DNA of 64,000 bases from Chitinophagales bacterium (GTDB lineage: Bacteria > Bacteroidota > Bacteroidia > Chitinophagales > Saprospiraceae). Each line of letters begins with the position of its first letter. Position 1 is the stretch's first letter. This document shows positions 7,939 through 31,614 of the stretch, piece by piece. The translations under genes were made by a program, and so were the position numbers. The stretch covers positions 1-64,000 of the forward strand of contig JAAFIM010000009.1 in the NCBI GenBank assembly GCA_013297745.1, written 5' to 3'. Below the pieces are notes generated by a model, which saw only the letters and a list, made by a program, of their open reading frames with translations, did no database searches and was not told the origin of the DNA.

Positions 7939-8772
7939 TTAGAATTGCCATTTATTAACATCAAAATTCTGTTCCAATTGTTGTTGTTCGCTGCTGTTGA
8001 GACTTGGGAAAAAATTAAGCCCCGTTTTGCTTTCTATGTCTTGGATAGAAGTGGCGTATTCTTTTAAGGTTTTGGTTGCTTTTTCATTTTTGAATAAAAA
8101 TGCTATGCCTTTTTTACCTTTATAATCCAATACGATTTTAAAAAAAGTGGTCGGCACGGTTACATTATCGCCTATTTTTTGGCTAACTCGCTGGGGCAAA
8201 ATTCCACCCGCTATCACATAAACTTTGCCTTCGCTTTCTGCCCAATTGCGCACTTTATCCTCCAAAGATTTCCAAATACCGCGATTAAAACTCGGAAATT
8301 GTGGGCTTACATTGGTCAAATAAAAACTTTCTTCCATAGCCGTAGCGTTGAAACTCATATCTTCTGCGGGTACTAAATGCCCTTTGTCATAGCCCGAACC
8401 TGCATAATCTTCATTGGTAGCGGTTTCGGTAATGTTGGGGTCTTTTTTGAAATTAGATTCTCGCGCAATTTGTTGACTTTCAGCCTGTTCGCGCTGTTTT
8501 TTGTCCAACGAATAAGCTACCCATTCAGGATTTTTGTGCTTGCTAACATAAGAAACGGTATAGTATTTATACGCTTTTTCTTGGCCTTTGCCGCCTGTGG
8601 GAATAAATTCAAATTTAGAGCTTGTGTTGTTATTGCTGTTGTTTGAATTGTTATTGTTGTTTGTATTGCTGGAGTTATTGTTGTTGGAATTATTATTTAA
8701 TTCTTGTTCCAATAAATCGCAACTGGCGAAAAAAGCCAAACAGAATAACAATAAAAGGTAAAATTTAGACAT
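7939..8772 (-). CDS. DNA/RNA non-specific endonuclease, lipoprotein
   Basis: 277 residues from the ATG at 8772. The frame is open 14 codons further, but that part crosses the promoter. A lipoprotein signal (LLLLFCLAFFASC) is followed by about 40 residues of Asn/Ser spacer and then the NUC1-type nuclease domain (PF01223). The DKGHLVPAEDMSF segment carries the catalytic His, and NVSPQFPSFNRGIWKSLE carries the metal-binding Asn. Probably anchored in the envelope, cleaving nucleic acids for nutrition or biofilm turnover. A second copy of the same family follows upstream at 8868-9671. Confidence 0.88.
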   Translation of the reverse strand: MSKFYLLLLFCLAFFASCDLLEQELNNNSNNNNSSNTNNNNNSNNSNNNTSSKFEFIPTGGKGQEKAYKYYTVSYVSKHKNPEWVAYSLDKKQREQAESQQIARESNFKKDPNITETATNEDYAGSGYDKGHLVPAEDMSFNATAMEESFYLTNVSPQFPSFNRGIWKSLEDKVRNWAESEGKVYVIAGGILPQRVSQKIGDNVTVPTTFFKIVLDYKGKKGIAFLFKNEKATKTLKEYATSIQDIESKTGLNFFPSLNSSEQQQLEQNFDVNKWQF

Positions 8773-8802
8773 TTTTGTGTTGTTTAGATATGAAAATAAG
8801 CG

Positions 8803-8810
8803 CAAAGGTA
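8803..8810 (-). promoter_or_regulatory. -7 promoter box, lipoprotein nuclease
   Basis: Minus-strand TACCTTTG, 31 bp ahead of the ATG at 8772; matches TAnnTTTG. Confidence 0.6.
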
Positions 8811-8821
8811 GCACTTTTTGA

Positions 8822-8852
8822 TAAAAAAAAGCCTGCTTTTTGGGCAGACTTT
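8822..8852 (-). terminator. Intrinsic terminator of second nuclease gene
   Basis: Minus strand: AGTCTGC, short loop, GCAGGCT and then a run of eight T. It lies just past the stop of the gene at 8868-9671 and separates the two nuclease genes into individual transcripts. Confidence 0.7.
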
Positions 8853-8867
8853 ATAAAAAATGATAAT

Positions 8868-9671
8868 TTAAAAACTCCATTTATTAACATCAAAATTTTC
8901 TTCCAATTCTTTGCGCTCTGTTTCGCTCAAGTCGGGAAAAAAGTTAAAACCTGTCAATTTTTCTACTTCAGTTATAGAAGTTGCGTGTTCTTTCAGCGTT
9001 TTGGTCGCTTTGGCATTATCAAAGATAAAAGCTATAGCTTTTTTATTCCCATCTTCATAAACCATTACGATTTTAAAAAACTTATCTGGAATAGTTAGCC
9101 CTTTTGAGCCGATTTTTTTGCAATTTTTATCTAAAATTCCACCCGCTACGACATAAACTTTATGTTCGGAATACGCCCAAGCCCTAACTTTGTCTTCCAA
9201 TACTTTCCAAATGCCGCGATTAAAACTCGGATTTTGCGGGCTGATGTTGGTTACAAAAAAACTTTCTGATATGGCTGTGGTTTCAAAACTCATATCTTCA
9301 GCAGCTACCAAATGCCCACGGTCAAAACCCGAATTGGTATAATCTTGGTGCGTCGCTGTGCCTTTCAAACGGCTATCCAATCTAAAACTAGACTCGCGCG
9401 CTGCGTTGGTTTCGTCGGCTTGCAAACGCTGAATTTCGTCCAATGAATAAGCCACCCATTCTGGATTTTTATGCTCCAACGAATAAGACAAACTAAAGTA
9501 TTTATACTCCAAAACTTGCCCCTTGCCGCCTGTGGGGATAAAATTAAGCTCGCCAGAATCGGGTTGGTGAAAATAAGCGGCTTGTTGGTTAATCGCTGAA
9601 AAATTAGAAACTTGGGCAGTTTGAAAATTTGCTAAAAACGAAAATGTTAAAAATAAAAACGATGAAAACAT
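8868..9671 (-). CDS. DNA/RNA non-specific endonuclease, secreted
   Basis: 267 residues, clearly paralogous to 7939-8772 over the whole nuclease domain (both contain FIPTGGKGQ, the GHLV-AEDMSF active site and SFNRGIWK-LEDKVR, and end DVNKW-F). It differs at the N-terminus: an ordinary signal peptide (FLFLTFSFLANFQTAQ) with no lipobox Cys and no Asn-rich spacer, so this copy is probably released rather than lipid-anchored. A tandem duplication with changed localisation is inferred. Confidence 0.88.
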   Translation of the reverse strand: MFSSFLFLTFSFLANFQTAQVSNFSAINQQAAYFHQPDSGELNFIPTGGKGQVLEYKYFSLSYSLEHKNPEWVAYSLDEIQRLQADETNAARESSFRLDSRLKGTATHQDYTNSGFDRGHLVAAEDMSFETTAISESFFVTNISPQNPSFNRGIWKVLEDKVRAWAYSEHKVYVVAGGILDKNCKKIGSKGLTIPDKFFKIVMVYEDGNKKAIAFIFDNAKATKTLKEHATSITEVEKLTGFNFFPDLSETERKELEENFDVNKWSF

Positions 9672-9726
9672 AATTTAGAATTTTTGTAAAACTTTTTAAT
9701 AAAATGTGTGTTTGTAATGTTTGATG

Positions 9727-9734
9727 CAAAATTA
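9727..9734 (-). promoter_or_regulatory. -7 promoter box, secreted nuclease
   Basis: Minus-strand TAATTTTG about 56 bp before the ATG at 9671; fits TAnnTTTG. Confidence 0.5.
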
Positions 9735-9771
9735 ACTTTTTTAATTTCAATCATTTCACTTTACAAAAATT

Positions 9772-10392
9772 ATGCCAAAAAAAAATTATCAAGATGAACG
9801 CGAAGTTTCTCTAATTTCTTTGCCAGCCAACAAAATGTATTTGTATCTACTGCTTTTTGGTTTGACAATTGCTTTTTTAAGTCTTTCTATATCTTATATT
9901 TATACAAGAAACCAAAATGGGGTAGGCGGGGTGTATTTGCCGCCTATTTTTATTGTCAATTCGGTTATTTTATTGGCGAGTAGCTGGTTTATTAGCAGAG
10001 CCAACAAATGTTACGAAGCAGATGATACGGCAGGTTATCAAAGAAATTTATATGGCACATTGTTTACCACTTTTTTATTTATGGCTGCTCAATTTGGAGC
10101 TTGGACTTTGGCTGCTGACCAACTGCTGGGCGAAAATATAGGCAACGGCAAACAGTATTTATACGCGCTTTCTGGGCTGCATTTTGCGCACATAGCAGGC
10201 GGTATTCCATTTTTAATTTTGTTTCTTTATACGGCTCACAAGCGGATGAAAGAGCCTGTAAGTGTGTTAATTTATTTTTCTGACCCCGATAAACGATTAA
10301 AATTAGAATTATTAAGCACTTATTGGCATTTTTTGGATGGTTTGTGGTTGTTTTTAGTGTTTTTATTCTTAGCCAATATGTTTATTGGATAA
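9772..10392 (+). CDS. Cytochrome c oxidase subunit III family protein
   Basis: 206 residues with about five hydrophobic helices and the subunit III hallmarks LSGLHFAHIAGG and TYWHFLDGLWLFLVFLF near the C-terminus. It belongs to the haem-copper oxidase subunit 3 family, a non-redox integral membrane subunit of the terminal oxidase. The other oxidase subunits are not in this window, so it is either a stand-alone copy or the complex is dispersed. No promoter box is evident in the 100 bp before it. Two intergenic repeat elements follow. Confidence 0.85.
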   Translation: MPKKNYQDEREVSLISLPANKMYLYLLLFGLTIAFLSLSISYIYTRNQNGVGGVYLPPIFIVNSVILLASSWFISRANKCYEADDTAGYQRNLYGTLFTTFLFMAAQFGAWTLAADQLLGENIGNGKQYLYALSGLHFAHIAGGIPFLILFLYTAHKRMKEPVSVLIYFSDPDKRLKLELLSTYWHFLDGLWLFLVFLFLANMFIG

Positions 10393-10405
10393 TTTTTTTG
10401 TTATT

Positions 10406-10709
10406 ATACTAAATTGAAAAAGTAGATGTGTGTTAAAAATTTGCGCTATGCGCTACATTTTTTATTTTTATTACTTTTTTGATGGCAAAAAAGTAACCAA
10501 AAAAGCCAACGCCAAAAAGGCGTTTTTGCTTGTATTTTCTACGAAAATAAGCGCAAAACCGTCGCTACAAGCCGACGTTTTTTGCTATGCAAAAAAGCTA
10601 CTGCCCTCGCTGTGCTCGGTTGGTCGTCTTTCCGCGACATACGCTGGTTTTGGCGTCGCACGGCGGAAACCTGCGTAATTTATACACACTTACTTTTTAA
10701 ATTCTGTAT
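10406..10709. repeat. Inverted-repeat-bounded element, end type B, copy 1
   Basis: About 304 bp between imperfect ~28-bp inverted repeats. The left end starts ATACTAAATTGAAAAAGTAG; the right end, reverse-complemented, starts ATACAGAATTTAAAAAGTAA. The ends match those of the element at 45830-46145. The interior from about 10470 to 10672 is nearly the same as 31360-31563, including hairpins such as CCAACGCCAAAAAGGCG and a long shared stretch ending GGCGTCGCACGGCG. Short open frames in it (10430-10678) are judged spurious. No convincing target duplication. Confidence 0.7.
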
Positions 10710-10725
10710 TATGTGAAATAAATTG

Positions 10726-10921
10726 TTTGTGGTTAAAAAACTTACTTTTATTCGCTTATTGTCCCCGCGTTGTAACGCGGGGCTATTTCTGTTAAACCCC
10801 GTTGGGGTTTTATTTTGCCAACCCCGAAGGGGTTGAACGCCAATTGCCCCGTGTGAAACACGGGGTTTAGAAGAAAAAAATTAAAAATATCGTTGCAAAG
10901 ATGCTCATTTTTAATCACAAA
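10726..10921. repeat. Palindrome cluster with short terminal repeats, end type E
   Basis: Ends TTTGTGGTTAAAAA (10726) and TTTTTAATCACAAA (10908-10921) are inverted repeats with one mismatch. Inside lie several GC-rich palindromes: CCCCGCGTTGTAACGCGGGG, AAACCCCGTTGGGGTTT, AACCCCGAAGGGGTT and CCCCGTGTGAAACACGGGG. Related palindromes occur at 15930-16090, 45900-46070 and inside both MITEs. Together with the type B element it fills the 550-bp gap between cox3 and alkB; no gene is supported there. Confidence 0.55.
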
Positions 10922-10942
10922 TAAATCATTCTTTTTGTTATT

Positions 10943-11500
10943 ATGAATATAAATGGGCTGACCTACATAGAAAATTTTATCTCTCCAACTGTTGAAAATC
11001 AACTATTGGCGGCTATTGATAGTTCCGAATGGCTGGGCGACTTAAAGCGGCGGGTTCAACATTACGGGTATAAATACGACTATAAAAAACGCCACGTAGA
11101 TTATACGATGCACATAGGCGATTTGCCCGATTGGGCGGCTGCTATAGCTCAACAAATTCAACAGCAAAAATTAAGCCCTTTTTTATTCAATCAGTTGATT
11201 ATCAACGAATACGAAGCTGGTCAAGGCATAACAGCGCATATTGATTGCGAACCTTGTTTTGAAAATTGTATCGCTTCTTTGAGTTTGGGAACTGCTTGTG
11301 CGATGAATTTTTACGAAAAAAATAATCTATCCAACACCCAAAATTTATATTTACAACCGCGTAGTTTGTTGATTTTACGCGATGAAGCCCGCTTTAATTG
11401 GTTGCACGGCATCAAAAATATAAAAAATGATACAATTGATAATCAACGACTTGCGCGCGGTCGCCGCGTTTCGCTCACTTTTAGAAAGGTGATTTTATAA
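10943..11500 (+). CDS. alkB: AlkB-type alpha-ketoglutarate-dependent dioxygenase
   Basis: 185 residues. Visible are the iron ligands H99-x-D101 (HIDCEP) and His155 (WLHGI), and the 2-oxoglutarate-binding arginine segment RRVSLTFR near 174-181. LIINEYEAGQGI is also typical of AlkB-type proteins. Family members oxidatively demethylate alkylated bases in DNA or RNA; the exact substrate class (AlkB vs ALKBH-like) is not decided. Monocistronic by layout, with a UUCG-loop terminator at 11516-11541. Confidence 0.87.
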   Translation: MNINGLTYIENFISPTVENQLLAAIDSSEWLGDLKRRVQHYGYKYDYKKRHVDYTMHIGDLPDWAAAIAQQIQQQKLSPFLFNQLIINEYEAGQGITAHIDCEPCFENCIASLSLGTACAMNFYEKNNLSNTQNLYLQPRSLLILRDEARFNWLHGIKNIKNDTIDNQRLARGRRVSLTFRKVIL

Positions 11501-11515
11501 GTTTTTTTGATTTAT

Positions 11516-11541
11516 AGCTTCCTTCGGGAGGCTTTTTTTAT
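11516..11541 (+). terminator. Intrinsic terminator after alkB
   Basis: A 7-bp stem (AGCTTCC / GGAGGCT with one G-T pair) closed by a TTCG tetraloop and followed by seven T. Confidence 0.8.
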
Positions 11542-11558
11542 TTTTGTGAAAAATAGCT

Positions 11559-11566
11559 TATCTTTG
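11559..11566 (+). promoter_or_regulatory. -7 promoter box ahead of ptuA
   Basis: TATCTTTG followed by C, a strong match to TAnnTTTG, placed directly after the alkB terminator. It leaves a leader of about 110 nt before ptuA that contains the palindrome at 11605-11650. It could be the ancestral promoter of the transketolase gene if ptuAB was inserted later. Confidence 0.6.
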
Positions 11567-11604
11567 CGGCCGATATGTTTATTTTTATATATCTGTTTTT
11601 TTTA

Positions 11605-11650
11605 CCGCGCAAACCTATAAGGTTTTTAAAACCTTATAGGTTTATAGCGC
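11605..11650. repeat. Perfect 16-bp palindrome in the ptuA leader
   Basis: Arms AAACCTATAAGGTTTT (11611-11626) and AAAACCTTATAGGTTT (11628-11643) are separated by one base and extended by CGCGC/GCGCG on the outside. It is not followed by a T-run, so it is not a typical terminator. Similar AACCTATAAGGTT palindromes are common intergenic repeats in Bacteroidota. It lies between promoter and ptuA start. Confidence 0.75.
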
Positions 11651-11682
11651 GAATATAAATTAAAAAATAAAATTTAGGAATT

Positions 11683-13149
11683 ATGGAAAATTTGGAAGAA
11701 GAAAAAGAAAAAATCTTGAAAATAGTAGATAAACATCTGCTAGATATAGAAAATTGTATGGATAGGTTTTCTATTTTAAGCGATTCTATAGCACTCTTGC
11801 CTTCAGGTTTTGGATACAATCCTTTTCGGATAGCCTTATTGGACTTTCAAATTTCTAGAATGTTAAACTTTGAAAAACCTTTAGAACTATTTTTAATTAA
11901 GACTAATCTATTTAAATACTTGTATTTAATATCCCCTCACCGCAGAGCCGCAACAAAAGAAGAAACTATAGGGGAATTAGAAAATATGAAATTAAGGGTA
12001 GAAAAATTGAAAGATATTTTACAAAATAACATTTATTTATTACCCGCTGTTTCCCAATACCAATATATTAGACAAATTTGTTTGTGGCCTTCATACAGTT
12101 TAGCTCTTGATTTTGGCGATTATTCGCAATTTGTAGTTTTATTAGGCGATAATGCTCAAGGCAAAACAATTATCCTGAAAGATATAGTTGGTAATAGCGT
12201 TTCGCTTTGTTTTAAAAATAATAAAGCCATTGCAATGCGGGGTAAAATAAAACCTCGCGATAAGCCAGAATTTGTGCTGGGCTATGACGATAGGCTGATT
12301 GACAGGGAGTTTGCTATAGAAACAGAGAATAATGAAAAAATTTCCCTACTCGGCTATTCTGCTTCTCGCGTAACTTTGCAAAGTGAACACAATACTATAA
12401 GCAGCGACTCATTAAGGGCGAGCAGCACAAAGCATTTATTAAGCAATGACCCGCTACCACTCTTGAATATAGAAACTTGGTTAAAAAATAAACGTCTTGA
12501 TGGATTTGACGACTTAGTAAAACAAGTCTGTTTAATGCTTGCTAAAATGACTCCAGAATGTAAAAGTGTGGAGTTACGAGGAAGTAAAGTGATATATACA
12601 GACATTTTTGGCGTTGAGTATAGTTTTTTAGAATTATCAATGGGACAAAAAACAATAATTGCTTTAATGGGCGATATTGCGATTCGTTTATTTGATTTGC
12701 AGCCAGAAGTGGAAAAAGTAGAAGATTTGCAGGGCATTGTGTTGATTGATGAATTGGAGGCGCATTTACACCCCAAATGGCAGCGCGAATTTCCCACTTT
12801 ATTGAAAACATATTTGCCCAAAGTACAATTTATTGTCAGCACGCACAGCCCTATGATTGTGTTGGGTATGCCCGAAAATACTTGTTATTTCCACGTCCAA
12901 AAAGACCAAGAAGGTAATATACAAGCCGAAAAGGTGGAAATTGATGTGAAAAATATGTTGCCTAATCAGATTTTGACCTCTCCATTATTTGGGTTGGCAA
13001 GTGATGAAATTTTAGCAGCTCCAAATGAGGGTTTGGAAAATTTGCATACAGAAACTAATTTTGAGGAGTTAGAATCTCGAAAAAGTCTATTTGAGCGTTT
13101 GCGGCAAAAAGCTAAAGATTACGAAACCAATAAAAACGCTGAAAAATGA
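11683..13149 (+). CDS. ptuA: Septu-like defence ATPase PtuA
   Basis: 488 residues. An N-terminal helical region (1-140) is followed by an ABC/AAA_21-type ATPase: Walker [11 protein letters not shown] (153-162), signature-like [10 protein letters not shown] (near 315), Walker [15 protein letters not shown] (352-365) and the H-loop VSTHSP (385-390). In Septu systems and in retron-Ec78 this ATPase partners the HNH nuclease PtuB to abort phage infection. The stop codon overlaps the ptuB start by 4 bp (ATGA), so translation is coupled. No reverse transcriptase is near, which favours stand-alone Septu over a retron. Assignment is by motif and gene order. Confidence 0.82.
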
Positions 13150-15047
13150 TAAAAATAATTCGCCCTCAACCTGCAGAAGATGAAGAAGCCAAAAAGGCTT
13201 TTGATGCTTTAATTGCTGCGCAAAGTGAAATTGAGTTTGAAAACGCTATTTTAAAAGCTCAAAATAACTATAAAAAATGGAATACAAGGCAATACAGCGA
13301 CCCGATTAAAGAGTTTTTATTCAAAGTCTATAACGGAAAATGTGGTTTTTGTGAAGAAAAATTGCTAGATATAAATGCTACTGACACCACCCATAACAAT
13401 ACTTTCACGGTGGAACATTATCGCCCCAAAACTCATTATTGGTGGCTTGGCAACGAATGGACGAATTTATTTCCGACTTGTTTGAAATGCAATAATGCGA
13501 AAGATAAAGAGTTTCCATTATATTCTGAAAAAGATAAAATTCCCAATACCCACATTGAGCTAAAAAAAGGAATGTTGAACCAAACATTTGATTATTTTAA
13601 TGCCAATTGTAAGTTTTTAAAACAAGAACGCCCCCTTTTTTTGCACCCAGAAATTGATGAGCCTGAAAACTATTTTAGTTTTGAAAATGGAACGAAATGT
13701 TTTGAAATGAAAGCCCAAAATGGCTTAGGACAATACGAACAACAACGCGCAACAAAAATGCTCAATAAATTTTTAAATGTTACGAATGTCAAACTAAATA
13801 GAAAAAAATATTTTGATGATTTAATTACACATTTAGCCAATGCGCTTGAAAATTATTTTGATAATGAACACGTTGCTGTTTCAGAAGAGAATAAATTAAA
13901 TCTTATATTTGGTGGTTTTTTCAAAACTTTAAAGGAAAATATCGGGAAAGATAAAAGATTTTCTTTGTTTGCTACATTTTTGTACGAAAATTTTATAGAT
14001 ACTTTTGTAGCCTATTTTGAAGTAGCGCAATTACCCACAGACACGATAACGAAAGCTTACGAGCTATTTAAAATTAAATACAATAAATCAATAATGACCT
14101 TATCCTCTATAAAATTCACACAAAAAAAAGCCACCCGCGACGGTTTCGGGCAAGGGCTTTACGAAGTCGCACAACAAAATCCAAATGTAGTAGCTTTGTG
14201 CGCAGATTTGATTGGTTCGCTCAAAATGGAGAAATTTATTGAGCATTTTCCCCAGCGTTTTGTGCAAGTGGGCATAGCTGAAGCCAATATGATGGGCATA
14301 GCGGCTGGTTTGGCTACAGCGGGCAAAATTCCTTATACGGGGACTTTTGCTAATTTTTCTACGGGGCGCGTATATGACCAAATTCGCCAATCTATAGCCT
14401 ATTCGCATAAAAATGTAAAAATTTGTGCTTCTCACGCGGGTTTGACTTTGGGAGAGGACGGCGCAACGCATCAGATTTTGGAAGATATGGGTATGATGAA
14501 AATGTTGCCCAATATGATAGTGATAAATCCCTGCGATTACGAACAAACTCGCCGCGCTACTATAGCTATAGCTGCTGTGGATAATCCCGTCTATTTGCGC
14601 TTTGGTCGCCCGAGTTGGCCAGTTTTTACCGAAAATATGCCTTTTGAAATTGGCAAAGTGTTGGTTTTGAATGAAGGCGCGGACGTTTCTATTTTTGCAA
14701 CAGGGCATTTGGTTTGGAAAGCTGTAGAAGCTGCCCGCCAATTGGAAAGCGAGGGAATTAGCTGCGAATTGATAAATATACACACGATTAAACCTTTGGA
14801 TGAAGCGGCTATTTTGGCTTCTGTGCGCAAAACTAAGCGCGTGGTTGTGGCTGAAGAACACAATATCATCGGCGGATTGGGCGAAAGTATAGCTGGATTA
14901 TTGGCACGAAATTTGCCTGCGCCTATGGAGTTTGTGGGTACAAATGACACTTTTGGCGAAAGCGGCAAAGCCGACGAGTTGTTGGCAAAATATGGCTTAG
15001 ATACCAAAGATGTTTATAATGCTGCAAAACGCGTTTTATTGCGTTAA
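13146..15047 (+). CDS. PtuB HNH nuclease fused in frame to transketolase C-terminal subunit
   Basis: A single open frame of 633 residues. Residues 1-316 are a PtuB/TIGR02646-type HNH nuclease: C66-GF-C69, VEHYRPK (His91), EWTNLFPT and C112-LK-C115-NNAK. Residues 317-633 are a complete transketolase C-terminal subunit: [48 protein letters not shown] and a C-terminal domain ending KRVLLR, with its native Met at 317 (ATG 14094). No stop codon separates the halves. The product may be one bifunctional chain, or transketolase may also start internally. The transketolase N-terminal (TPP) subunit is not in the window. A frameshift or base error could create the fusion and should be excluded. Confidence 0.85.
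14094..15047 (+). other. Probable internal start and native extent of transketolase C-terminal subunit
   Basis: ATG at 14094 begins [19 protein letters not shown], which lines up with the usual N-terminus of Bacteroidota transketolase C-terminal subunits and gives 317 residues, the normal length. This part supplies the pyrimidine-binding and C-terminal domains that, with a separate N-terminal subunit, transfer two-carbon units in the pentose phosphate pathway. There is no clear Shine-Dalgarno upstream, as is normal in this phylum. Ten or so AT-rich bases before the ATG belong to the ptuB frame. Confidence 0.7.
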
Positions 15048-15077
15048 TCCAATTTTATACAAATAAAATTTTGTTCT

Positions 15078-15860
15078 ATGAGAAAATACCTCTTTTTCTG
15101 TTTGTTGTTAGCTTTTTCCGCTTGCAAAAATGGCTTGGGGCTGAATGTCTTTACTTTGCAACAAGACAAACAATTGGGCGATAAACTAAAAGCTGAAATT
15201 TTATCCAATCCGTCCAAATATCCCGTTTTGCCCTATCAAGGTAACGAAAAAGCCTATAATTATTTGTATGCTATGCGCGATGAGATTCTAAAATCGGATA
15301 AAATTCGCTATCGCAGCCAATTCAAATGGGAACTTCACATTATAAAAGACGATAAAACGCTCAATGCGTTTGCTGCTCCTGGCGGTTTTATGTGTGTTTA
15401 TACGGGTTTGATAAAATATCTAGAACACGCCGACCACTTGGCTGGAGTGTTGGGACACGAAATCGCCCACGCCGACCAACGCCATTCCACTCAAGCGATG
15501 ACCAAAGCCTACGGTTTGCAGGTCGTTACTCAAGTGGCTGCTGGTAGCGGTGGCGGACAATTGGCTGAAATAGCGGCTGGTTTGACCCAATTAAGTTTTT
15601 CTCGCGGACACGAAAAAGATGCGGATGAACATTCGGTAGAATATCTTTGCGATACGCGTTATGCTTCCAACGGCGCGGCTGGTTTTTTTGAAAAATTAGT
15701 TGCTAATAAAGCTGCTGGCGGCACGCCCGCTTTCCTTTCTACCCACCCAAGCCCCAAAAATCGGGTTAAAGACATCAACGATTTAGCCAAAAAATTGCGC
15801 TGCAAAACCACAATGGCTGATAATACAGGTTGGGCGCAGTTTAAAGCTTCTGTGAAATAA
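15078..15860 (+). CDS. M48 family metallopeptidase, lipoprotein
   Basis: 260 residues with a lipoprotein signal (FCLLLAFSAC), then an M48 peptidase domain: zinc motif HEIAH (127-131), preceded by NAFAAPGGFMCVYTGLI, and the third-ligand region HEKDADEHSVEYL. It resembles Oma1/LoiP/BepA-type envelope quality-control peptidases. It is 30 bp downstream of the transketolase part and could be cotranscribed. An inverted-repeat element begins 3 bp after its stop. Confidence 0.9.
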   Translation: MRKYLFFCLLLAFSACKNGLGLNVFTLQQDKQLGDKLKAEILSNPSKYPVLPYQGNEKAYNYLYAMRDEILKSDKIRYRSQFKWELHIIKDDKTLNAFAAPGGFMCVYTGLIKYLEHADHLAGVLGHEIAHADQRHSTQAMTKAYGLQVVTQVAAGSGGGQLAEIAAGLTQLSFSRGHEKDADEHSVEYLCDTRYASNGAAGFFEKLVANKAAGGTPAFLSTHPSPKNRVKDINDLAKKLRCKTTMADNTGWAQFKASVK

Positions 15861-15863
15861 CTA

Positions 15864-16134
15864 AGAAGTTGTTTAGTAAGAATTTTTCTACATTTTCAAT
15901 TAAGAAAAATAATCAGCTATGTATTTCAAGCAACAGACTAAAGTCTGTTGTAATCGTTTTTTGCCTTTCAACGGGTTAAAACCCGTTGGTATTGATTGAT
16001 GAAACTATATAACGCGCGGGACTTTAGTCCCAAAAGCGCGAAAAAATCCTAAATCTCAATTGTGCTGGGACTTTAGTCCCGCACGCACAAAACAGAGAAA
16101 TTAAAATATAAAAAAAGCATACTAAACAACTTCT
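15864..16134. repeat. Inverted-repeat-bounded element with palindromes, end type D
   Basis: Ends AGAAGTTGTTTAGTAAG (15864) and CATACTAAACAACTTCT (to 16134) are inverted repeats with one mismatch, as in a MITE. The interior holds CAACAGACTAAAGTCTGTTG, CAACGGGTTAAAACCCGTTG, GCGGGACTTTAGTCCC and a second GGGACTTTAGTCCC copy. No coding potential and no clear target duplication. It accounts for the 315-bp gap after the M48 gene. Confidence 0.75.
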
Positions 16135-16143
16135 AAAATAAAA

Positions 16144-16177
16144 AAAGTCCTCTCCGCTGTGGAAAGGACTTTTTTTT
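16144..16177. terminator. Intrinsic terminator of the lutB-porQ operon
   Basis: AAAGTCCTCTCC, loop, GGAAAGGACTTT with flanking A- and T-runs. It lies at the end of porQ on the minus strand and may also stop rightward transcription from the M48 gene. Confidence 0.75.
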
Positions 16178-17234
16178 ATGCCGATTTTTTCTTCAAAAAG
16201 GAGTTTAAATTGGTAGAAAAGGTAAAATGATGCACCATTCCCGCAAAGTGCATAATGTTTAAACCATAATCTATGCGAAATTTGGAAATTTTAATCCCAA
16301 AACCTGTAGAAAATCCCGCCAAACCGCGCAAACCTTGTACGCGCATTTCTGCACTGTGCAAATAATTGTAACCCAAACGCAAACGCAAAACCTCTTTTTT
16401 ACCCAAAGATAATTCAGCGTTAAAAATTAAATGGCGGAAAAAATTATCCACAAAAACCCCAAAACCTGGGCGGGTCGTAACGGTGTCGTTAAATAATTGA
16501 TTTCTGTCCCGAATGGCTGGGTCGTCGTAAGCTATAGCCCAACGCTGCAATTGTTGGCCAATCACAGAAAAGCGCAAAGGCAGATATTTTAACCGCTTGG
16601 AAATGCCAAATTGTATCTCAAAAGGCAAAGGTTCAAAATTTTTATCTTTGTTGTAGGTCGTTAATTGACTACCAAAATTCCTAAACGTAAGCGCAGCCAC
16701 AAATCGCGCTGCTGTATCTTCATAAATTGCCGCTACATCGCCAGCCAAACCCACAGATTTATAACTCGCCAATTGAGATTGTACAAACTTTAAATTTGCG
16801 CCTACAGTCAAACGGTCGCTTAAAGCTCTACTTCCGCCCACGTTCAGAGCCAATTCGCGCGCACTAAATTCGCCCGTTATGCTGCCGTCTGGTTCGGTTT
16901 GTTGAAATTTGCCGTAATTGATGTATTGAACTCCAGCTTGGAAAGTGCCGATTTTATCAAAATTTTGTCCATAACTCAAATATCCAAAAGTTGCGCCTGC
17001 TGGGTGTATGGTTTGATTAAAACTAATCTGTTTGTCCATTGTGGCGTTCAATAAAGCGGGATTGGCCAACGACAAAGCCACATCGTCATCTTTTGTAGCG
17101 ATTAGACTTCCGCCCAAAGCTGTAGCGCGCGCAGAAGAGGATAAACGCAAAAATTGATAAACTGCATCGCCTCCAATTTGCGCCTGAAGGGCTGCTGCTT
17201 GTGCCAAAACTGCACAAATTAAAACTATTCGCAT
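16176..17234 (-). CDS. porQ: Type IX secretion system protein PorQ
   Basis: 352 residues with an N-terminal signal (LICAVLAQAAALQAQ), then GGDAVYQFLRLSSSARATALGGSLIATKDDD, the typical start of PorQ, and a PorV/FadL-like outer-membrane beta-barrel with alternating hydrophobic strands to the C-terminus. PorQ is a component associated with type IX secretion in Bacteroidota. It is the last gene of a tight leftward run (8 bp after the DUF6155 gene). The secreted YHYH protein at 31669 carries the matching sorting domain. Confidence 0.85.
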   Translation of the reverse strand: MRIVLICAVLAQAAALQAQIGGDAVYQFLRLSSSARATALGGSLIATKDDDVALSLANPALLNATMDKQISFNQTIHPAGATFGYLSYGQNFDKIGTFQAGVQYINYGKFQQTEPDGSITGEFSARELALNVGGSRALSDRLTVGANLKFVQSQLASYKSVGLAGDVAAIYEDTAARFVAALTFRNFGSQLTTYNKDKNFEPLPFEIQFGISKRLKYLPLRFSVIGQQLQRWAIAYDDPAIRDRNQLFNDTVTTRPGFGVFVDNFFRHLIFNAELSLGKKEVLRLRLGYNYLHSAEMRVQGLRGLAGFSTGFGIKISKFRIDYGLNIMHFAGMVHHFTFSTNLNSFLKKKSA

Positions 17235-17242
17235 AAAAAAAA

Positions 17243-17854
17243 TTATGAATTTTTTGGGGAGTTATTTATTGATACCCAACTATAGGTAGAAAAATTACCA
17301 TTAAACTCTACTTGATAGGGAAAATTTTTGCCGTAGTGTTCGTTATAAACTTCTATTAAATTAATTAAAAAATCTATTTCGTAATAGCCTGTATGACTAG
17401 TAAAAAGGGTTTCAATGTCAGCATCAAAATATCCATATAAAAGATTATCCCGCACTAAAATACAAAACTCTTTGAAGGATGTATAACTAGATTGAAAAAA
17501 ACTACTGGATAGTTCATTCCAATGGTCTTTCAATAAAAGTTCAATTGCACATTTTGCTCTATGGAGTAGCAAACGCGCCAAGTCGTAGGGAAAAACAGAA
17601 ATTTGTTTAAATTCGCTGATAATTTGGCGAATTTTTATTGGAGAAACTGAAGCGACAGATTTCATAGCAGCATTAAGTTTCTTTTTATACGTTTCCAAAC
17701 AAGTTTCCCGCGCTGCATCGCTGCCCAAGTCTTGAGTATAATGGTTTTGTACTTGCTCGTATCGTTCAAACAATTTGAGCATTTCAGCAGCCATTTCTTC
17801 TTTGGTCATTTGGGCTAAGTACTTTTTGAATTCAGTTTTTTTGAGTTTAGCCAT
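17243..17854 (-). CDS. DUF6155 family protein, copy 2
   Basis: 203 residues, predicted cytoplasmic and helical. Begins MAKLKKTEFKKYLAQMTKEE, parallel to the next gene upstream (MAKIRKTELKKFLSQLSKEE), and shares HYTQDLGSD, IFPYDLA/IFPYELA and VEVYN. These are hallmarks of the DUF6155 family, whose function is not known to me. The two genes are 3 bp apart and clearly tandem duplicates with considerable divergence. Confidence 0.7.
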   Translation of the reverse strand: MAKLKKTEFKKYLAQMTKEEMAAEMLKLFERYEQVQNHYTQDLGSDAARETCLETYKKKLNAAMKSVASVSPIKIRQIISEFKQISVFPYDLARLLLHRAKCAIELLLKDHWNELSSSFFQSSYTSFKEFCILVRDNLLYGYFDADIETLFTSHTGYYEIDFLINLIEVYNEHYGKNFPYQVEFNGNFSTYSWVSINNSPKNS

Positions 17855-17857
17855 ATT

Positions 17858-18433
17858 CTAGATGATATTGTTAAGGTAAGAAATGTGATATTTTATCTTT
17901 TTGGGAAAGGGTTTATTCCAATATCTATTATAAACTTCAACGAGGTCAGGCCCCAAATAGTTGGTTTTTCGCCCTTTGTTGCAGATTAAAATATCCATTT
18001 CTCTTTCAAACTGAGCGAATAAAAGATTATTTTTTATCAACTCGCAAAGGTCTTCGTAAGCGGTAATGGTAGAATTGTGAAAAGCTGAAGGCAAAAATCC
18101 CATTTCTTCGTATAGTTCTAACGATAATTCTATCCTATAAAACATCAATTTTGCTAATTCATAAGGAAAAATGCTAATTTTTTTATACTCTGCAATCACT
18201 TTTCGCATTTGTGAAATTACAGGCAATTTGCGAAAGCTACCGAATAATTTGCGCATTTTTTCCCTATAGTCGTTCAATAAACGATTTCTATCCTCGTCGC
18301 TGCCCAAATCTTGAGTGTAATGTTCTTGAATTTGGCTGTATTTTTCAAATAAATTCATTATTTCAGTTTCCAATTCTTCTTTGGAAAGTTGCGATAAAAA
18401 TTTTTTCAACTCGGTTTTTCGTATTTTAGCCAT
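17858..18433 (-). CDS. DUF6155 family protein, copy 1
   Basis: 191 residues from the ATG at 18433. The frame is open 25 codons further but would run into lutB, so the start that matches its paralogue is used. It contains MAKIRKTELKKFL at the N-terminus, an EHYTQDLGSDEDR segment and SIFPYELAKLMFYRIELSLE. Function unknown. It lies 28 bp downstream of lutB in one operon with the second DUF6155 gene and porQ. Confidence 0.7.
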   Translation of the reverse strand: MAKIRKTELKKFLSQLSKEELETEIMNLFEKYSQIQEHYTQDLGSDEDRNRLLNDYREKMRKLFGSFRKLPVISQMRKVIAEYKKISIFPYELAKLMFYRIELSLELYEEMGFLPSAFHNSTITAYEDLCELIKNNLLFAQFEREMDILICNKGRKTNYLGPDLVEVYNRYWNKPFPKKIKYHISYLNNII

Positions 18434-18461
18434 ATTATTTTGTTTTGGGATTTTATGGAAT

Positions 18462-19838
18462 TTAGACCAAGCCCTTTTTCCAAAGTTGGTTGAATGTTTT
18501 GCCCTCAAATTGGGGAAAAACGCGCCTTTCGCCCCATAGCGGCATCAAATATCGCTTGGCAAACCAGCGTTTGGCAAATCGGGGCGTGTTCATTAGCCAG
18601 CGTTTGGAAGACAACCAAGCCCACATTTTCCACATTCTTTGCTCGTCTGTGGGTTTTAGATTTTTTTCTGTTTCCAAATGGCGATTATATAAAATAAGTT
18701 CGTGCAGATTGATTTTGACAGGGCAAGATTCAGTACAAGCCCCACAGAGCGAAGAAGCGTTGGATAAATGCGCATTTTCCTCAAAATTGCCCAAATGCGG
18801 CATCAATACAGCCCCAATAGGGCCAGGATAGGGCGCATCGTAAGTATGTCCGCCTATATTTTTATAAACAGGGCAATTATTCAAACAAGAACCGCAGCGA
18901 ATACAGTACAAACTTTCCCGCAATTTGGGGTCAGCTACCAATCGCGAGCGGCCGTTATCTATCAAAATAACGTACATTTGTTGCGCGCCGTCTTTTTCAT
19001 TTTTTTGTTGCGGTGCAGAAATCAGCGTGTTATAAACTGTCAATTGTTGCCCCGTGCCGTAAGTTGATAAAAGGGGTAAAAATACGTCCAAATCTTGTAC
19101 CGAAGGCAATACTTTTTCAATCCCCACCAAAGCAATATGCACGGGCGGAAGGGTAGAAGTAAGACGCGCATTTCCTTCATTTTCAGTGATTAAGATGCTG
19201 CCTGTGTCGGCGATGATAAAATTTGCGCCCGTAATTCCCACTTGAGCTTGAGCGAATTTTGCCCGCATTTGTTGCCGCACAAAAGCCATAATTTGGGCTG
19301 GAGTTGCGTCGGCTGGAGTAGCAAATTTTTGATGAAATAACTCCGCTACATCGGCTTTATTCAAGTGCATTGCTGGAGTTATAATATGATAAGGCGTTTC
19401 ATTCCGCAGTTGAACGATGTACTCGCCCAAATCAGTTTCCAACACTTCAATATCTTGTTCAGCCAAAAAATCGTTCAATTCTATCTCTTCAGTTATCATT
19501 GATTTTGATTTAACGACCAAATCCGTTTTTTGTTCTATTAAGATATTTTTTATCAAAATTCGGGCTTGGGCTGCGTCTTCTGCCCACAAAACTTTGCCGC
19601 CGCGCGCTGTGAAATTTCGTTCAAACTCCAATAACAAAGTCGGCAAATTTTCTATAGCTTGCCATTTTATATTTTTTGCCAATTGACGCGCTTTTTCCAA
19701 ATCGGCAAATTGTTGTTTGCCAATAGCCACTTTTTCATCATAACGACTGATATTAAACTGAATAGTTTGGCGATGGCGGCGCGAAAATGCTTTTTGGTCG
19801 GCTTGGTTGAGAAACGTTGATAAAATATCTTGTTGCAT
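18462..19838 (-). CDS. lutB: Lactate utilisation iron-sulfur protein LutB (LUD domain)
   Basis: 458 residues from the ATG at 19838. The upstream TTG (19862) is inside the -7 box and is rejected. The N-terminal LUD domain includes KSKSMITEEIELNDFL and GITGANFIIADTGSILI. It is followed by two 4Fe-4S cysteine clusters, CIRCGSCLNNCPVY and CGACTESCPVKI, then a helical tail with RWLMNTPRFAKRW. In the LutABC pathway this protein helps oxidise L-lactate to pyruvate. LutA is not in the window and a LutC-like gene lies 8.6 kb away (27094-27726). First gene of the operon with DUF6155 and porQ genes. Confidence 0.88.
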   Translation of the reverse strand: MQQDILSTFLNQADQKAFSRRHRQTIQFNISRYDEKVAIGKQQFADLEKARQLAKNIKWQAIENLPTLLLEFERNFTARGGKVLWAEDAAQARILIKNILIEQKTDLVVKSKSMITEEIELNDFLAEQDIEVLETDLGEYIVQLRNETPYHIITPAMHLNKADVAELFHQKFATPADATPAQIMAFVRQQMRAKFAQAQVGITGANFIIADTGSILITENEGNARLTSTLPPVHIALVGIEKVLPSVQDLDVFLPLLSTYGTGQQLTVYNTLISAPQQKNEKDGAQQMYVILIDNGRSRLVADPKLRESLYCIRCGSCLNNCPVYKNIGGHTYDAPYPGPIGAVLMPHLGNFEENAHLSNASSLCGACTESCPVKINLHELILYNRHLETEKNLKPTDEQRMWKMWAWLSSKRWLMNTPRFAKRWFAKRYLMPLWGERRVFPQFEGKTFNQLWKKGLV

Positions 19839-19859
19839 AAAATTAGGTTTTTTGGACGG

Positions 19860-19867
19860 CAAAGATA
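19860..19867 (-). promoter_or_regulatory. -7 promoter box for lutB operon
   Basis: Minus-strand TATCTTTG followed by C; exact TAnnTTTG, 22 bp before the chosen ATG. Confidence 0.6.
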
Positions 19868-19895
19868 CAATTTTTCCACCAATCTATAACAAATA

Positions 19896-19925
19896 AAAAA
19901 CGCTTTCAGCCAAAGCCAAAAGCGA
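19896..19925 (-). terminator. Intrinsic terminator
   Basis: Minus strand TTCGCTTTTGGC...GCTGAAAGCG followed by six T; lies just after the gene at 19931-20470. Confidence 0.55.
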
Positions 19926-19930
19926 ATAAA

Positions 19931-20470
19931 TTAACATAATTTTTTTAATTCTTGCAGCCAAGTTTTGAATTCGGCTAATTCTGTGGCATTTTTATAGTCG
20001 TCTTCCAAATCGCCATATTTGGTGATTAACATTTTTTCGTGTGGGTTTTTATCGCTGCGCAGTTTGAAAAGTTTTTCCCAAAAGATGATTTTTTGCTGTT
20101 CCAAATCCAAATGTATTTGATAATTGGCTAATTTTTCCAAAATATCGGTTTCATTTTCCGCTTCGCGGTTTGGGTTTAAATTTTCGCGATAGAAAAATAA
20201 ACGCTGCTTGCTGTTGGGATTATAAAATTCAAAAAGTAGCGTTTTATCCGTTTTGGCTGTTTTTTCTGCAAAACAAAAAGGTTGCAAAAGCCGCATTTGA
20301 TAAGCGCAAAGTGCGTCTATTTCGTGGCTGCATTTGGAAATTTCTACCTCACATTCAGCCAAAGCTTGGTTGCTATGGAGTGGAATTTTTCCGCTTGTTT
20401 TTCTATTGATTAGCAAAAATACAACCGTTATGCTGATAATTAAGGCAAGGATAGAGATAAAAATCCACAT
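19931..20470 (-). CDS. Hypothetical protein with one N-terminal membrane helix
   Basis: 179 residues. Residues 2-22 (WIFISILALIISITVVFLLI) form a single membrane anchor followed by a basic stop-transfer (NRKTSGK). The rest is charged and mostly helical with several Cys. I do not recognise the family. It is probably an inner-membrane protein with a cytoplasmic tail. It is flanked by the tRNA-Asn terminator upstream and its own terminator downstream. Confidence 0.55.
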   Translation of the reverse strand: MWIFISILALIISITVVFLLINRKTSGKIPLHSNQALAECEVEISKCSHEIDALCAYQMRLLQPFCFAEKTAKTDKTLLFEFYNPNSKQRLFFYRENLNPNREAENETDILEKLANYQIHLDLEQQKIIFWEKLFKLRSDKNPHEKMLITKYGDLEDDYKNATELAEFKTWLQELKKLC

Positions 20471-31265: not shown

Positions 31266-31614
31266 AGTTACGCTTGAGGCTTCATTTTAGTACAAAAAAA
31301 CTAAAAATTAAATTGGGTAGAAATTTTTTTAACGGCTTACGCCTAAAAAATTTATCTTTCGTACTTTTTTGATGGCAAAAAAGTACCAAAAAAGCCAACG
31401 CCAAAAAGGCGTTTTTGCTTATTTTGCTTCATTTCATTGCGCAAAAAGCGCAAAACCGTCGCTACAAGCCGACGTTTTTTGCTATGCAAAAAAGCTACTG
31501 CCCTCGCTGCGCTCGGTTGGTCGTCTTTCCGCGACATACGCTGGTTTTGGCGTCGCACGGCGAATATTTAGCTTTCCAACTTGACTTTTATTACAAAATA
31601 GCTCAAGCGTAACT
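31266..31614. repeat. Inverted-repeat-bounded element, end type C
   Basis: Perfect 13-bp ends AGTTACGCTTGAG (31266-31278) and CTCAAGCGTAACT (31602-31614). The interior 31360-31563 is nearly the same as 10470-10672 although the ends differ from that element. A stretch near 31330 (AACGGCTTACGCC) recurs inverted at 48850-48865. The small frames inside (31369-31584 and others) repeat the same peptide as at 10430-10678 and are judged non-coding. It fills most of the 403-bp gap before the YHYH gene. Confidence 0.75.

Follow-up and report, generated by a model that had tools for sequence, protein, structure and literature searches.

Does a reading frame that joins a defence nuclease to an enzyme of central metabolism encode a working fusion protein, or have two neighbouring genes merely come to share a frame? 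This question is raised by an open reading frame of 633 residues on the forward strand (positions 13146-15047) of the window, by which we mean the whole stretch of 64,000 nucleotides analysed here. Both the ORF list and the translation give it as a single frame with no internal stop, bearing out the in-frame join of ptuB to tktC proposed in the first-pass annotation. The front part of the chain is the HNH nuclease PtuB of a Septu module. TktC, the C-terminal subunit of a split transketolase, follows from residue 317, whose codon is its native start, the ATG at 14094. A genuine frame would mean that a defence nuclease has become locked into the same reading frame as a central-metabolism enzyme. 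We consider it probable that a rearranged Septu module came to lie before tktC, that separate TktC is made from ATG 14094 and that the fused chain is a tolerated by-product. The argument turns on the following features.

10393-11682, no strand assigned: upstream part of the seam, comprising a repeat-bearing spacer, a 2OG-Fe(II) oxygenase gene (10943-11500, forward strand) and a palindrome before ptuA (annotation, repeat searches)
11683-13149, forward strand: ptuA, AAA-type ATPase of the Septu module, 488 residues (PADLOC PtuA model PDLC00287, E 2.7e-50; PtuA chains in the PDB)
13146-14093, forward strand: ptuB, HNH nuclease of the Septu module, residues 1-316 of the fused chain, with no stop of its own (PADLOC model PDLC00316, E 4e-34)
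14067-14096, forward strand: junction, consisting of the last PtuB codons, an AT-rich leader and the tktC ATG at 14094-14096 (sequence, start-context score, folding)
14094-15047, forward strand: tktC, C-terminal subunit of a split transketolase, 317 residues plus stop (Pfam PF02779 and PF02780; PDB 6yaj)
15078-15860, forward strand: M48 peptidase gene, ancestral downstream neighbour of tktC (Pfam PF01435; downstream in the related genomes G489, G538, G470 and G563)

The two halves of the fused frame

The genes in front of tktC form a recognizable Septu module. A PtuA-type ATPase gene is adjoined by a PtuB-type HNH nuclease gene with a 4-bp overlap, just as the first-pass annotation had described, and PtuA displays, by eye, a Walker A motif (GDNAQGKT), a further stretch of 17 residues and a stretch STHSP. 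In the PtuB half, residues 14-306 align with positions 19-296 of the 301-position PDLC00316 profile, and the CxxC, EHYRPK and CxxCN residues are invariant in an alignment of five sequences (PtuB and four relatives). Since these residues are conserved and the PtuB half differs by only a few residues from its nearest unfused relatives in where it ends, the nuclease is not truncated, and its initial description as complete stands.

What sets this PtuB apart is that no stop precedes 15047. A separate PtuB protein is usual in Septu and not strictly defining, as PADLOC also includes PtuB-PtuA single chains. The model of such a chain, PDLC00292, is matched by ptuB in its front and by ptuA in its rear, a pattern which suggests that PtuB may tolerate a C-terminal partner. 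An AlphaFold2 model of the chain, with the PtuB half lacking homologues, has a mean pLDDT of 60.7 and residues 64-223 below 50; this low-confidence model places a helix at 298-312 and is of low confidence at 311-315.

The identity of the rear half is equally clear. Its 317 residues contain both domains of a split-transketolase C subunit, Transket_pyr and Transketolase_C, over the Pfam cut-offs (PF02779, E 2.2e-41; PF02780, E 5e-33), in accord with the full-length subunit beginning at residue 317 that had been noted before. Its top-ranking PDB hit, with E 2.2e-92, is chain C of the split transketolase 6yaj, matches to single-chain transketolases fall in the back half of those long chains, and the unfused gene of the relative G489 encodes a protein 79% identical to it. 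The genome has no second close copy of this tktC, the three other matches being distant (E 3e-15 or weaker). The N-terminal subunit gene, whose presence elsewhere the first-pass annotation had wished to see checked, does exist: one full tktN of 281 residues lies on another contig (C95:1670-2515). Both halves of the fused chain keep their conserved residues, and either may be active.

The junction and the start of tktC

As the sequence reads, ptuB lacks a stop codon and its only predicted product is joined to TktC. The open frame across the junction is confirmed for the present assembly. It depends, however, on a short AT-rich tract being of exactly the length that this draft assembly gives. 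Around the junction one of the other two frames has stops at 14069, 14075 and 14084, and the other at 14092 and 14095; the nearest upstream ones, 14084-14086 and 14092-14094, both lie no more than 10 bases before ATG 14094. By our own estimate, an open frame across two abutting genes is not improbable, being expected for about one frame in three. For comparison we used the other genes of the window, an automatic set of 45 ATG-initiated ORFs of at least 180 residues, in none of which does the frame stay open for 60 codons or more ahead of the ATG.

Within the sampled genomes the fusion is a singleton. A search with the whole chain in 199 genomes of the family produced matches in 109 at E 1e-60, and only in the present genome did the match span residues 1-633. 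A search with tktC in 398 family genomes produced 201 at E 1e-100, and among the matches listed only the present frame exceeds 391 codons. Three other long frames were considered as possible fusions. In L195, the 187 open codons upstream of tktC overlap a neighbouring gene in another frame; in G550, a frame of 527 codons has a TAG inside the matched stretch and reads 321 in the tktC search; the 596-codon frame of G014:C221 likewise has a TAG inside the matched stretch. Among the matches listed, the search for the same fusion in relatives, proposed with the original observation, thus points to the present genome only, and the tktC genes of relatives are unfused. A PtuB-transketolase fusion was also not found in the literature searched by title and start of abstract.

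Such a solitary case invites the suspicion that the genes are separate in life, and that a small sequence or assembly error hides a ptuB stop at or beside the tktC start of what is truly an operon. In addition to the unfused tktC of relatives and the closure of both other frames so near the ATG, this reading can draw on TAATG at 14092-14096, which would be a stop-start overlap in a frame other than the fused one; TA directly precedes the ATG in only one of the 45 other starts in the window. On the other hand, PtuB, read in the present frame, stays similar to its relatives right up to the final residues, so that an error could lie only within a short tract, and the lack of a comparable upstream open frame in any of the 45 other window genes means that no general error load is visible. 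We therefore regard a hidden stop as unlikely.

If the frame is taken as real, the next question is whether TktC depends on it. According to PMC6847099, Bacteroidetes lack Shine-Dalgarno signals, and initiation in Flavobacterium johnsoniae is favoured where position -3 is an A and the RNA is little structured. ATG 14094 has both properties: A is found at -3, as in 27 of the 45 window genes, and the surrounding 60 bases fold at -0.6 kcal/mol, compared with means of -3.7 for gene starts and -9.1 for internal ATGs. Its start-context score, from a position model built from the 45 window genes that rewards AT-richness (and ptuB is AT-rich), is 5.97. Of the 45 real starts 10 reach this value, whereas all 279 ATGs internal to window genes stay below it. 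For the ptuB start the score is 1.32, and for the three ATGs within ptuB it is -2.8 to -5.9. Free TktC of 317 residues is thus probably made from its own start, and metabolism could then do without the fused chain. Internal initiation, in a phylum that lacks Shine-Dalgarno signals, would probably rescue the downstream gene. An annotation pipeline would call one protein of 633 residues where two products are likely. We also looked for a tktC promoter inside ptuB. The motif TTG-N(16-21)-TAnnTTTG, which we take to be the promoter consensus, matches at 13980; we give this no weight, as there are 32 matches in the window and three in the ORF.

Broken gene order and the origin of the join

The neighbourhood of tktC offers the best clue to how the join arose. 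Of the 163 family genomes inspected, 145 carry tktN no more than 193 bases upstream of tktC. In 16 of the remaining 18, the upstream sequence that was read contains no tktN; one genome has an insert between the two genes, and for one the stretch is too short. For this count, which leaves aside G010, G562, G535, G567, G523, G014:C221 and five places from the 398-genome tktC search, the short loci L075, L081, L078 and L089 gave way to longer stretches covering those places, namely L053, L280, L282 and L281. The order coxA15-SRAP-tktN-tktC-M48 is common to G489, G538, G470 and G563, where coxA15 and SRAP are presumptive labels given by eye. In the present genome, a 4.28-Mb draft of 154 contigs that is 96% complete and, judging by the named records with the most similar tktC genes, probably belongs to the Saprospiraceae, coxA15-SRAP-tktN lies on C95, and tktC-M48 lies together with ptuAB on C144. 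The ancestral order has thus been broken between tktN and tktC, with ptuAB at the seam. On the upstream side of the seam are cox3 and two nuclease-like genes, a block which lies away from tktC in G470, G563 and G489. Between these two blocks, kept apart in relatives, are 3.7 kb containing the repeat-bearing spacer, the AlkB-like gene and ptuAB.

The GC content is 31.0% in ptuB, 44.1% in tktC, 35.6% in cox3 and 37.1% in the whole window; with cox3 and the window also low in GC, composition alone does not prove ptuAB foreign. No repeat explaining the break was found at the junction. Close relatives of PtuB were not found in the genome contigs or viral contigs searched. The ptuB stop may have been lost in the break itself or by a later small change. 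At E 0.001, PtuB relatives occur in 7 of 60 related genomes, the present one counted, in frames of 204-344 codons except for two in G014 (484 and 834). At E 1e-12 they occur in 2 of 395 genomes of the phylum, again counting the present one, and the other is 30% identical. Plasmid matches are 22-36% identical among 20 of the 35 matching records.

Several repeats and duplications were observed in the same region. The intergenic stretch 10461-10665, upstream of the AlkB-like gene, recurs at 31351-31562 with 91% identity over 214 nt. A 33-nt palindrome lies just upstream of ptuA (11611-11643), and its 16-nt arm occurs once more in the genome (C2:6373-6405). Two similar adjacent genes, by their look presumably secreted DNA/RNA non-specific endonucleases, occupy 7939-9671; relatives have one such gene beside cox3.

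The place between tktN and tktC is occasionally occupied in other genomes. Among the 163 inspected family genomes the only insert there is in a Saprospiraceae MAG (L128:4286-5990 of CAMDAB010000157.1, the same as L292 of G828), where it consists of an AriA-like ATPase gene (AriA model, E 1.4e-37) and a gene of 144 residues with a weak PDC-M29B match. In the 16 genomes without upstream tktN, six read to 5,000 bases and ten to 2,500, no defence pair upstream of tktC was obvious by eye. We considered whether defence genes tend to accumulate in this gap, making it a hot spot, but two cases, the present genome included, are too few for such a claim. In 80 named loci, tktN is adjacent in 47, separated by more than 1 kb in 18 and missing upstream in 14, one locus being too short. 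Those of the 18 larger gaps that were read mostly contain one vWA-like gene, otherwise one or two other genes. A vWA-like gene, which we take to encode a vWA-domain protein, lies between tktN and tktC in L162, L189, L195 and L201 from other Bacteroidota.

These observations agree best with the following course of events. A complete two-gene Septu module would have ended up, through genome rearrangement, directly before tktC in the place of tktN. With no in-frame stop at tktC, ribosomes finishing ptuB could not terminate and would continue into tktC, and PtuB would be made only as the 633-residue PtuB-TktC chain. TktC would most likely be produced as the normal 317-residue subunit from ATG 14094 and pair with TktN encoded elsewhere in the genome. 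The long chain would most likely be a tolerated by-product, and any activity of PtuA and PtuB would be that of a usual Septu complex of ATPase and nuclease, here with one domain added. The idea of a defence insertion that captured a housekeeping start, offered in the first-pass annotation, fits the broken gene order, the change in GC from 31.0% to 44.1% and the unfused tktC of relatives.

The location of tktN on another contig of a draft assembly would also fit a misassembly, in which the assembler joined two unrelated stretches at 14094. The division of the ancestral tktN-tktC neighbourhood between C95 and C144 and the shift in GC at the junction are what such a chimera would produce. However, each gene is complete and the two join at a native start codon, where a random false join would be unlikely to fall, and the 16 of 163 sampled genomes without tktN upstream of tktC make a real break credible. 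A chimeric contig is accordingly improbable.

The functional link between metabolism and immunity, also offered in the first-pass annotation, is not supported. TktC might anchor PtuB to transketolase or make the nuclease responsive to sugar phosphates. Besides the open frame, with conserved residues kept in both halves, single-chain transketolases carry the matching C half behind another domain, which makes an N-terminal extension conceivable. Yet the fusion occurs once in the genomes searched and has no co-occurrence or conservation in its support, the sole close tktC copy must serve metabolism and has a strong-looking start of its own, and two further PtuA-PtuB-like pairs in the same genome, with 4-bp overlaps (C75, L126:3848-5892; C122, L127:4629-6547), are unfused. 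A fusion selected for its function is therefore highly improbable. It would be just as surprising if PtuB worked only as the PtuB-TktC chain, with the Septu complex docked on TktN and placed at or gated by a pentose-phosphate enzyme, or if the join made the module hard to lose through the frame shared with the only close tktC of the cell. A selected link of this kind, possible on the strength of the open frame, would be striking if true; we infer that there is none.

Relation to known systems

In its core the module agrees with Septu: an ATPase, PtuA, and an HNH nuclease, PtuB, are encoded by adjacent genes overlapping by 4 bp, and PADLOC models match most of the conserved parts. The differences are that PtuB here runs on into TktC and that PtuA has about 110 additional N-terminal residues compared with its nearest family relatives (11683-12120 of the window; residue 143 of the query aligns to position 31). 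The same protein families act as retron effectors (Ec78/Eco7, TIGR02646), and our proteins match TIGR02646 (E 1.8e-11), NF041760 (E 1.4e-37) and retron PtuA chains in the PDB, although all NCBIfam scores are under the cut-offs. In a retron, a reverse transcriptase and a retron RNA would stand beside PtuAB; no reverse transcriptase was seen near ptuA among the ORFs of 8000-20000 read by eye, and 9500-15200 had no Rfam match. Among the ORFs between cox3 and ptuA, the nearest gene is the 2OG-Fe(II) oxygenase. As to activity, PMC11555353 reports that Septu PtuAB targets nicked DNA and that PtuAB of retron Eco7 depletes tRNA-Tyr, and the 2026 abstract of PMC13096335 reports a Septu system cleaving tRNA-Tyr.

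The second component resembles the split transketolase of Carboxydothermus (TktN and TktC; 6yaj) in having a two-domain C chain and a separate N-chain gene. Its setting differs: tktN, which immediately precedes tktC in most of the relatives inspected, is encoded on a separate contig in the present genome, and the position in front of tktC is occupied by a defence nuclease. The closest parallel to this arrangement is the insert of L128/L292 in G828, where tktC is likewise directly preceded by two genes, one for an ATPase and a small one; there, however, the families are different, tktN is still found upstream and the last gene stops before tktC. Septu and split transketolase are both already known systems, and their fusion is a one-off variant.
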